Of a DNA stretch of 64,000 bases, positions 6,932 through 10,670 are shown piece by piece. The position numbers and the translations under genes were made by a program. The stretch is from SAR86 cluster bacterium (GTDB lineage: Bacteria > Pseudomonadota > Gammaproteobacteria > Magnimaribacterales > AG-339-G14): contig JAOIHS010000004.1 of NCBI GenBank assembly GCA_028135785.1, positions 1-64,000 on the forward strand, read 5' to 3'. The notes beneath the pieces are model-generated. The model saw only the letters and a program-made list of their open reading frames with translations, did no database searches and was not told where the DNA came from. Numbering within the stretch: position 1 is the stretch's first letter; each line of letters starts with the position of its first letter.

Positions 6932-8002
6932 ATGCAATATTTGACTGATAATACCAGAATAACTGGGCTTTTGGAGGTTTCGCCTCCTAACGATGTAATA
7001 TCTGAGTTTCCCATAACTTCAGCTAGTTCCGAGCTGGTTTTTAAAGCAAGACAAGATATATCTGAAATCATGCGAGGGACCGACGATCGCCTTGTAGTGG
7101 TGGTAGGTCCATGCTCTATTCATGACCCTAAAGCTGCTATTGAGTATGCGCAAAAACTAAAAAATATTGAAGAGTCTCTAAATAGCGAACTAAAAATTGT
7201 TATGAGAGTTTATTTTGAAAAGCCACGTACTACAGTTGGATGGAAAGGCCTTATAAATGATCCTGACTTAGACGATAGCTATGACGTAAATAAAGGCTTA
7301 AGAGAAGCGAGAAAGGTTTTGTTAGAAGTTAATGAAATCGGACTACCTGCCGCCACTGAATACTTAGATATAATAACTCCTCAATATATTTCAGATTTAA
7401 TTTCTTGGGGTGCAATCGGAGCAAGAACAACTGAAAGTCAAGTTCATAGAGAACTTGCCTCTGGTTTATCTTGTCCAGTAGGATTCAAAAACTCAACTAC
7501 TGGATCCATTCAGGTTGCAATTGACGCAATCGGCTCTTCATCTAGACCGCATATATTTTTATCAATTACTAAAGAAGGAAAATCAGCAATTTTTAATTCG
7601 GCTGGAAACGAAGACTGTCATGTAATTTTACGAGGTGGAAAAACGCCAAATTTTGAAAATGAATTCATAAAAGAAACTGCTGATATTTTGAGAAAGTCTG
7701 GAATAACTCCTTCGATTATGGTCGATATGAGTCATGGAAATAGCCAAAAGCAATTTAAAAAACAACTTCTAGTAAATAAAGATATATCTGATCAAATAGC
7801 TGGAGGAGAAAAAGGAATTTTTGGAGTGATGATTGAAAGTCACCTAGTAGAAGGAAATCAATCAATTGGCCCTAAAGATTCTTTAACTTATGGTCAAAGC
7901 ATTACAGATGCTTGTGTTAGCTGGGAAGATACTGAAATTATGCTCAACTCATTAGCATCAGCAGTTAAATCTAGAAGAAAAAATCTAGAAAAGACTGCCT
8001 AA
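6932..8002 (+). CDS. 3-deoxy-7-phosphoheptulonate (DAHP) synthase, AroG/F/H type
   Basis: VVVVGPCSIHDPKAAIEYA, MRVYFEKPRTTVGWKGLINDP, MVDMSHGNSQK. Confidence 0.93.
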   Translation: MQYLTDNTRITGLLEVSPPNDVISEFPITSASSELVFKARQDISEIMRGTDDRLVVVVGPCSIHDPKAAIEYAQKLKNIEESLNSELKIVMRVYFEKPRTTVGWKGLINDPDLDDSYDVNKGLREARKVLLEVNEIGLPAATEYLDIITPQYISDLISWGAIGARTTESQVHRELASGLSCPVGFKNSTTGSIQVAIDAIGSSSRPHIFLSITKEGKSAIFNSAGNEDCHVILRGGKTPNFENEFIKETADILRKSGITPSIMVDMSHGNSQKQFKKQLLVNKDISDQIAGGEKGIFGVMIESHLVEGNQSIGPKDSLTYGQSITDACVSWEDTEIMLNSLASAVKSRRKNLEKTA

Positions 8003-8958
8003 TGACAGAAAAATACAAAGATATAAATTTTTCATCTGAAATAGCAGACTCTATTGGTTTAGAAGAAGCCATAATATATTCAATTTTAGAAAAAATTAGT
8101 TCAAACCAACTTACCCTTTCAGAACTTGATCAAAAGTTAAGTTTTTTGAATATTCAAAGAAAATTTGATGCTATTTCTAAACTAGAAAAACTAGGTTTGG
8201 TCATAAAAGATGATTTGAGTTTGAGTTTGAAAAATAAACTGAAAGTTAAAAACGACATACCTATTGTAAAAAATCCTACCTTTGATTTCTCCGAAGAAAC
8301 TATTAATCAGGCAAAAAGTTTTGGCATGTCTAATCAATTCATTAGAGAGAAAATAATTTATTTCAAATCATTTCCATCTAATGAAGTTGATTCAGAATAT
8401 AACTCAAATTATAAATTGCTTAAGTTTCTTATTAAAGAGTGGAGAAAATACGAAAAAGAAGAAGTGGTTGAGTCAAAAAAAACATTGATTAAAAAAGATT
8501 GGGAACCTTCTGTTGATGGGCTGTCGATTCTTGAATCAGCAAGTATTGAAATTGACTTTGTAGTTAAGTCTATTCCTGAATTTATTTTATATTGGCAAGA
8601 AAAAAAGATGAAATCAGATACTTGGAATAGTCTTTTTATAAACCATGTTCGCAGACAATGGGCTAGATATAAAAATATTATTGAAGATAATGTCTCTCCA
8701 AAGAAGATGGCTGCAGATTGGTACCCTCATGCTAATTGCTTTGACGTTCTTAAATTAGCCAGAATTGAAGAAGAATTCGCTAAGAATCAGTTACCAGAGT
8801 TTAAAATTTACTGGATCGATTCCAATCAAGTGATGATGTCCTGGAATTCCAAATTCATTCAACATGTAAAATACAAATGGTTTAAAGAAAACCCCAAAGC
8901 ATCGGGTATAATTTCTAGACTAACAGATAAAGAGTGGGCAATTGAATACTCAGATTAA
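8002..8958 (+). CDS. Winged-helix N-terminus plus tandem DnaT-like ssDNA-binding modules; putative primosomal/replication-restart protein
   Basis: Two collinear ~59-aa repeats (KDWEPSVDGLSILESASIEIDFVVKSIPEFILYWQEKKMKSDTWNSLFINHVRRQWARY / ADWYPHANCFDVLKLARIEEEFAKNQLPEFKIYWIDSNQVMMSWNSKFIQHVKYKWFKE) matching the DnaT C-terminal pattern W.P...-PEF.-YW-WN..F..HV..W; N-terminus resembles a winged helix. Confidence 0.7.
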   Translation: MTEKYKDINFSSEIADSIGLEEAIIYSILEKISSNQLTLSELDQKLSFLNIQRKFDAISKLEKLGLVIKDDLSLSLKNKLKVKNDIPIVKNPTFDFSEETINQAKSFGMSNQFIREKIIYFKSFPSNEVDSEYNSNYKLLKFLIKEWRKYEKEEVVESKKTLIKKDWEPSVDGLSILESASIEIDFVVKSIPEFILYWQEKKMKSDTWNSLFINHVRRQWARYKNIIEDNVSPKKMAADWYPHANCFDVLKLARIEEEFAKNQLPEFKIYWIDSNQVMMSWNSKFIQHVKYKWFKENPKASGIISRLTDKEWAIEYSD

Positions 8959-9520
8959 AATTCCAGAAAATCAAATAGATTTAATTAATATTTTATTTAC
9001 ACAACTAGAGATTACTTATCATAATCAGTTTCACAAGGCTTTTCCGGATGCAGATAGTCTTAAATTAGCAAAACAACTCTGGCTTCAAAAAATTTCTTCC
9101 TTTAAAAATGAAGTTATTTTTAATAGCGTTGATCACATAATGAGTACTTCTGAATATTTACCCTCTTTAAGTAGCGTATTGAAAAAGTGCAAAGAACTTA
9201 CACTGGATGCCAATGGCATTCCTAGTTTAGAAAAGTCCTTTAAAGAAGCTTCAGTATATTGCGATGACCCGTCTAGCCATGAATGGTCTCACCCGTTGGT
9301 TTACCAAACAGGCAAAAGAACAGGGTGGTTCTTTTTAAAAAGCGAGTCTGAGAAAAATGCACTTAAAGAGTTTTCAAAATATTTTGATCTTTTAATTCAA
9401 GATTGGATGGAAGGAAAGAAATTTAGCTCCCCAGAAGTTCCAAAAATAGAAAAAAATAAAGAACCTGTTGATAAGTCAGAGCAGTTAGATTTTATAAAAA
9501 AATTAAAAAATAAGTACTAA
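8942..9520 (+). CDS. Phage lambda replication protein P-like (putative helicase loader)
   Basis: TTG start overlapping the preceding ORF by 17 bp; pattern ILFTQLEITYHNQF...AKQLWLQKISSF...YLPSLSSVLKKCKE...GWFFLKSESEKNALKEFSKYFDLLIQDWMEGKKFSSPEVP parallels lambda P (F.QL..t...; W...; P.lPSp..f..wC; ...hywL.......). Confidence 0.6.
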   Translation: MNTQIKIPENQIDLINILFTQLEITYHNQFHKAFPDADSLKLAKQLWLQKISSFKNEVIFNSVDHIMSTSEYLPSLSSVLKKCKELTLDANGIPSLEKSFKEASVYCDDPSSHEWSHPLVYQTGKRTGWFFLKSESEKNALKEFSKYFDLLIQDWMEGKKFSSPEVPKIEKNKEPVDKSEQLDFIKKLKNKY

Positions 9521-9596: not shown

Positions 9597-10670
9597 ATGT
9601 TTAGTAAATATATTGCTCTAATTAGAGATACCTTAATGACTCGATCTAATATTGAGTGGTCGGCTATGTTTTTAGGTTTCTCAGCAATTTGGATGGTTTC
9701 TGGTTTTTTTGTAACAGAAGAAGGGAAGCAAGAAATCGTTTTTGATAAAGAATCTACGGTAAGAGTAATTGATCAGACTTCATTACCATATACTCGTGAA
9801 ATTTTAGTTAAGGGATTTGCAGAAGCAGATAAAAAAGTTGAGTTGAAAGCGGAAACATCAGGAAGAGTTATTTCCCTTCCCGCAAAGCAGGGTTCATTTG
9901 TAAAGAAAGGTCAGCCGATATGTTCAATCTTTATGGCAGAAAAAGAATCTTTTTTTAAAAAAGCAGAACTCGAATTCAAATCGGCTGAGAAACTTTTTGA
10001 TGAAGGTTTATATTCTTCTAATCAATTCCAAAATATTAAATCTAATTATGAAAGAGCTAAATTAGAATTAGACAATGCAACCATCAAAGCGCCCTTTCCG
10101 GGCATTGTTGATCGAATTGCTCTCGACGAAGGAGATTTCCTTTCAAGAGGTTCAACCTGTGCAGTATTACTTGATCTTGATCCGATGATAATTAGTGGTG
10201 ATATCTCTGAAACAGATGTTGGATTTATAACCGTTGGTTCTTCAGCAAAGGTAGAAACCTTAGATGGAAGTCAGTATCAAGGGAAAATTAGTTTTATTTC
10301 TTCATCGGCAAATAATAGAACTCATACCTTTAGAATAGAAATCACAGTTGATAATAAATCTGGAAACATTAAAGACGGCGCTTCAGCCAGGATATTTCTT
10401 CAGGGAGAAAATCAGCTAGCTAATTTAGTTCCACTGTCTATATTGAGATTAGACGATGCAGGTGATCTAGGCATAAGAATAGTAGGTAGCTCTGGCTTTG
10501 TTGAATTCGTGAAAATTAAACTCATTCAAGATACTAAGAAAGGTGCTTGGGTCTCTGGATTGCCTAAAAAAACAAGAATAATTACAGTTGGTCAAGACTA
10601 TGTAAGTGATGGTGAAAAAGTAGAAATAGCCATTGATGAGAGATTAATGTCAGATGAACGCATTAATTAA
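9597..10670 (+). CDS. RND efflux periplasmic adaptor (HlyD/MFP family)
   Basis: VELKAETSGRVISLPAKQGSFVKKGQPIC lipoyl half-motif, coiled-coil hairpin, ATIKAPFPGIVDRI; next to an RND pump. Confidence 0.88.
   Translation: MFSKYIALIRDTLMTRSNIEWSAMFLGFSAIWMVSGFFVTEEGKQEIVFDKESTVRVIDQTSLPYTREILVKGFAEADKKVELKAETSGRVISLPAKQGSFVKKGQPICSIFMAEKESFFKKAELEFKSAEKLFDEGLYSSNQFQNIKSNYERAKLELDNATIKAPFPGIVDRIALDEGDFLSRGSTCAVLLDLDPMIISGDISETDVGFITVGSSAKVETLDGSQYQGKISFISSSANNRTHTFRIEITVDNKSGNIKDGASARIFLQGENQLANLVPLSILRLDDAGDLGIRIVGSSGFVEFVKIKLIQDTKKGAWVSGLPKKTRIITVGQDYVSDGEKVEIAIDERLMSDERIN

Follow-up and report, generated by a model that had tools for sequence, protein, structure and literature searches.

How does a bacterium load its replicative helicase DnaB without DnaC or DciA, and how little of a loader does it need? 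Both questions are raised by two small overlapping genes in a window of 64,000 nucleotides (the whole stretch of SAR86 DNA that was analysed), taken from a 947-kb draft genome that is 65% complete (G000) and belongs to f1, one of four SAR86-order families (f1 to f4) in our genome sample. ORF1 (8002-8958, 318 aa) starts within the TAATG at 8000-8004 that also contains the stop codon of a DAHP synthase gene (6932-8002; Pfam DAHP_synth_1, 3.7e-95), and ORF2 (8942-9520, 192 aa) starts at a TTG and overlaps ORF1 by 17 bp. A gene for an HlyD/RND-type periplasmic subunit, its class judged from sequence, follows at 9597-10670. All four genes lie on the plus strand, and the two outer ones are neighbours that stand outside the system. 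Scanning the window for Rfam families and tRNA genes gave no match. An initial annotation had drawn the same boundaries, with the TAATG junction, the 17-bp overlap and the TTG start at 8942, all of which we confirmed on the sequence, and had proposed that the two genes form a phage-derived helicase loader.

ORF2, the dopE-like gene, encodes a helicase loader of the lambda P type. The protein matches the Pfam family Phage_lambda_P (PF06992; E 2.2e-9, 37.7 bits against a curated cut-off of 26) and PHROG 109, 'P-like helicase loader' (E 1.9e-19). In Foldseek searches with its AF2 model (pLDDT 93.6) the best PDB matches are lambda P in complexes with E. coli DnaB (top, 9oa1 chains Y/Z/V, E 3.7e-5 to 3e-4), and the SPP1 loader G39P comes next. 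G39P shares the helical-domain fold of ORF2 (1no1, TMt 0.78; profile E 0.0068), although the relation in sequence is weak and G39P belongs to a Bacillus phage. Family matches and predicted fold thus confirm the earlier assignment of ORF2 to the lambda P family. PDB searches that used ORF1 or ORF2 as a single sequence yielded no useful match, nor did NCBIfam supply a usable family. Two parts of ORF2 matter for what follows: first, the segment WSHPLVYQTGKRTGW (9284-9328, plus strand; alignments A1 and A3) of the middle domain, which is the domain lost in shortened P proteins, and second, the C-terminal tail helix KSEQLDFIKKLKNK (9473-9514, plus strand; helix 178-191 of the AF2 model), which aligns with the lambda P C-terminus ALAKIAEIKAKFGL and is of the type seen on DopC proteins that lack a P partner.

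ORF1, the dopC-like gene, matches the Pfam DnaT family (PF17948; E 7.4e-42, 141 bits with a cut-off of 25) over three stretches, which we read as two clear DnaT modules (8488-8673, 2.6e-19, and 8704-8892, 1.9e-21) and a degenerate first one (aa 98-159, 8293-8478). The degenerate module coincides with the third Pfam stretch, has a three-helix pattern and aligns to a full DnaT module of relatives in alignment A2. The AF2 model (pLDDT 83) shows the same three modules, two of them intact, behind an N-terminal winged helix (aa 12-76, 8035-8229) recognised from its secondary structure and by Foldseek, where winged-helix proteins were matched at probability 0.97-0.99 with weak E-values. Since the whole ORF1 model had no Foldseek match under 0.001, we claim the winged helix at the level of the fold only. 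The DnaT domains behind a winged helix that had been recognised earlier are therefore upheld, and their number is corrected from two to three, the first being degenerate. Near the C-terminus, the motif LTDKEW (8920-8937) resembles the end of lambda O, LTNTDW, and its tryptophan, W312, is invariant in alignment A5. ORF1 shares its DnaT domain with phage replication initiators (phrog_1032 and phrog_1408) and carries the C-terminal LTxxxW, with no full-length match to lambda O.

Neither gene is a chance reading frame, as ORF2 is stop-free in 28 of the 41 genomes searched (its own included; identity 94% to 31% in the others) and tandem DnaT-domain genes were found in 84 of the 91 genomes of the order, with 2 or 3 detected copies of the domain in all but one. 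The order DAHP synthase - DnaT - [P] - HlyD/RND is kept across f1-f4, and scpA/scpB lie divergently upstream in most loci that cover that side. Four further genomes with DnaT turned up in a class-wide sample of 276 genomes outside the order: two (G096 and G134) carry the chromosomal pair, and the remaining two have a single DnaT, phage-like neighbours and DciA. DAHP synthase is the neighbour in all four SAR86 families and also in G134, which, from outside the order, keeps DAHP synthase - triple DnaT - P. In the named genomes that were scanned, the same pair, again overlapping, occurs in Porticoccus, Spongiibacter, Thalassolituus, Bermanella, Oleispira, Gilvimarinus, Simiduia, Pseudohongiella and SAR92 as well. 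The gene order predicted to be conserved thus holds for the order and for a distant family too, and the housekeeping flanks remarked on earlier are conserved over the order. The pair is vertically kept; this part of the original proposal stands for the DopC side across the order and has to be narrowed for P, which is not universal, as two SAR86 families lack it. At five loci outside SAR86 (L144, L152, L161, L175 and L182) a DopC-type gene has no adjacent P, and we rejected these as cases of P loss because P lies unlinked elsewhere in each of the same genomes. Two database entries, L144 and L170, are titled as Klebsiella pneumoniae and Rhodobiaceae MAGs yet carry the gammaproteobacterial/SAR86 locus, and are probably mislabelled or mis-binned.

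As lambda P-type genes are phage genes and phages do carry relatives of this one, we considered whether the pair might be a recent prophage remnant, or genes for hijacking the host by a phage, with no function in the host. A viral scan with alignment A1 gave no match, a broader P alignment recovered 61 P relatives and a DnaT alignment 7 matches, with no close source for the SAR86 pair among them; identity to the nearest phage P proteins is about 25%. The conserved housekeeping flanks across the order, the broad vertical distribution and the complementary absence of DciA and DnaC described below, together with the lack of a close phage relative, make a remnant very improbable. Separately, viral contigs L225-L229 (L226 and L228 from IMG/VR) carry a DnaT-repeat gene whose product, like DopC, ends in 'LTDRSWA' or a similar sequence, with no P on the stretch, and the genes around it in L226 and L228 resemble those of Mu; such viruses may recruit the P of their host.

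If the pair loads DnaB, the other known loaders could be missing from these genomes, and this is what we found, in a set in which our own genome is 65% and its relatives are up to 97% complete. DciA (DUF721/PF05258) was detected by Pfam in none of the order's 91 genomes. Some gammaproteobacterial DciA proteins escape the Pfam model, so a gamma-specific profile was built, which found DciA in 0 of 24 searched pair-bearing genomes (two of them named outgroups) compared to 8 of 10 other gammaproteobacterial genomes. Matches to DnaC/DnaI (PF01695) in the order, assigned by size and position, were either AAA proteins of DnaA size and above or short, partial matches, with none of them DnaC-like. DnaB itself is present in 17 of 17 genomes searched, so that the genome check for dciA and dnaC came out as the loader proposal predicted, with neither found and DnaB present in relatives. 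The DnaB of f1 (L218, L219, L220) is more divergent than that of other SAR86 families (TIGR00665 about 455-471 bits vs 489-534).

E. coli DnaT acts in PriA-dependent replication restart. The DnaT repeats of ORF1 could accordingly place the pair in a primosome of the PriA-DnaT-DnaC kind rather than at origin initiation, and PriA is indeed present in most of the order, being found in the searched genomes of f2, f3 and f4 and in the f1 genus g3; outside the order it was found in G096 and G134. However, searches of G000 and of G008, a complete single-contig genome of the sister genus that retains the pair, returned only short partial helicase matches and no PriA; these are two genomes only, the first of them incomplete, but the result makes PriA-dependent restart doubtful in this lineage. 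No DnaC partner was found in the order either, and since no other known loader was found, the pair would need to serve oriC anyway. We therefore consider a role confined to restart unlikely. The initial annotation had left the choice between replacement of DnaC/DciA and restart open: replacement is favoured by the absence of both, and restart is the part that has become doubtful.

Adjacent O-type and P-type genes in the chromosome, outside a prophage, in a genome without DciA and DnaC/DnaI, are what characterises DopC/DopE, which Brezellec et al. 2017 (Genome Biol Evol 9:1561) reportedly described as a domesticated lambda O/P-type pair in bacteria that lack these loaders. The pair itself is thus already a described kind, and the core idea of the initial annotation is not new. 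DopE has since been named as a loader family (PMC13326638). Phage lambda O/P shares with the SAR86 pair the O-P gene order with overlapping ends, the P family, fold and C-terminal tail, and the O-like C-terminal LTxxxW; unlike in the phage, the SAR86 genes are chromosomal and vertically kept, ORF1 has DnaT repeats, and ORF2 is only 19% identical to lambda P. With E. coli DnaT, ORF1 has in common the PF17948 DNA-binding domain and weak profile matches to DnaT structures, but it differs in its 2-3 tandem domains, its winged helix, the lack of a DnaC partner and the lineage in which PriA was not found. DciA resembles the pair in its presumed role as a DnaB loader and in a Leu-rich C-terminal helix, whereas in sequence the two are unrelated. 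Taken with the lambda P and DnaT matches, the conserved order and the absence of DciA and DnaC, which support the earlier reading as a phage-derived loader pair that would load the helicase, we hold with considerable confidence that these genes form a DopC/DopE pair in the chromosome, a DnaB loader, probably derived from lambda O/P, that replaces DciA/DnaC and whose P is being eroded within SAR86, apparently down to a tail in two families.

It is in this erosion of P, and in a P-like tail on DopC, that the SAR86 variant departs from DopC/DopE. Using a profile built from A3, we found P missing from 18 of 18 genomes of f2 and 12 of 12 of f4, a sample in which some genomes are incomplete and several are near-complete single contigs. 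All outgroups have P, as do the searched genomes of f1 and f3 with the exception of two f1 genomes that are incomplete. Intermediate states also occur: in the f3 genus g11 (G038, G062, G064) and in G096 a shortened P keeps the N-terminal domain and the tail, and the middle domain is gone. These shortened genes belong to two unrelated lineages (L110 5985-6494 in G096 and L086 3091-3534 in G038). In 27 of 27 f2/f4 genomes examined the HlyD gene starts no more than 54 bases after the DnaT gene, which leaves no room for P at the locus, and in the same 27 the DopC-type protein itself carries a P-like tail at its C-terminus ('LREKYKI', 'LKEKHQI'). DnaT proteins of the outgroups end around 'DRSWA' or 'DTSW' and are tail-less. 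On a position-specific tail score, which was trained on P tails picked by a loose pattern and so gauges resemblance and not descent, DopC of f2/f4 reaches +18.3 to +0.7, the lowest value coming from a protein with an unread residue, compared to 1.0 or below, nearly all under -5, for DopC of P-bearing lineages and a median of -14 with a maximum of 6.4 for about 700 other C-termini (ORF2 excluded).

There are two ways in which such a tail could have come about: it may have been retained from P, or it may be a charged helix that arose by convergence, with DnaB loaded through other contacts of DopC or by an unrecognised loader. The DnaC N-terminus shows Leu-rich amphipathic helices, as do DciA C-termini (LxxALxKLAxR-like), so that motifs of this kind can arise repeatedly, and the tail is short, about 12 residues of charged helix. 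Set against convergence are the occurrence of the tail in 27 of 27 genomes and only where P was lost, the tail-less DopC of the outgroups, and the resemblance of the endings to the P tails of the sister family: endings are mostly LRxKxx in f3 and f4 and mostly LKxK in f1 and f2. Convergence thus seems rather unlikely to us, and judging from these resemblances we suggest that the DopC tail of f2 and f4 descends from P.

Whether P was lost once or twice depends on how the families are related. A tree of DnaB, DAHP synthase, ScpA and HlyD joins f1 with f2 (support 100) and f3 with f4 (support 81, rising to 97 once DopC is added), which gives the f3-f4 sister relation moderate support. When the long-branch outgroups G096 and G134 were included in an initial tree, the position of G134 was unreliable; the AU test was therefore run without both, and a tree in which f2 and f4 are forced to be monophyletic was rejected (p=0.00017). 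DopC architecture agrees with the tree, with three modules in f1 and f2 (the first degenerate in some f1) and two in f3 and f4. As f2 and f4 are not sisters, P was probably lost twice, in two independent in-frame events that each kept the tail. In a comparison made without the text of Brezellec et al. 2017, this series of P loss and tail fusion looks new.

Known contacts with DnaB suggest how the parts may divide the work. The C-terminal 103-233 fragment of lambda P binds DnaB, residues K177, K200 and K229 crosslink near the DnaB CTD, and each P protomer places a lasso and a helix on the linker helix of the adjacent DnaB subunit (PMC6391071); K229 sits just past the tail. The DnaB contact of DciA is likewise made by a C-terminal extension that contains Leu (PMC9825169), and a two-helix binding module on DnaB is common to DciA, DnaC and lambda P (PMC9912922). 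By analogy with these contacts, ORF1 would most likely bind DNA at the opened origin and receive ORF2, and ORF2 would bind DnaB, open its ring and deliver it; the tail would contact DnaB, DopC would provide DNA binding, and a full P would contribute ring opening. The tail, which is amphipathic, may then be the minimal DnaB-binding element, an irreducible contact, because f2 and f4 lost the rest of P and kept such a tail on DopC. A point against our preferred explanation is that other SAR86 keep the full P although the tail would suffice in f2 and f4. On balance we lean slightly towards a loader that was cut down twice to a helicase-binding peptide of about 12 residues on its DNA-binding partner, giving a one-protein loader without an ATPase or a P domain.

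SAR86 thus offers a natural deletion series, from a full P through a P without its middle domain to the tail only, and the series points to the indispensable part of P. If this reading is true, recruitment by a short peptide would be enough to load DnaB. SAR86 are among the commonest bacteria of the ocean surface, and given this abundance such a system would be environmentally widespread.
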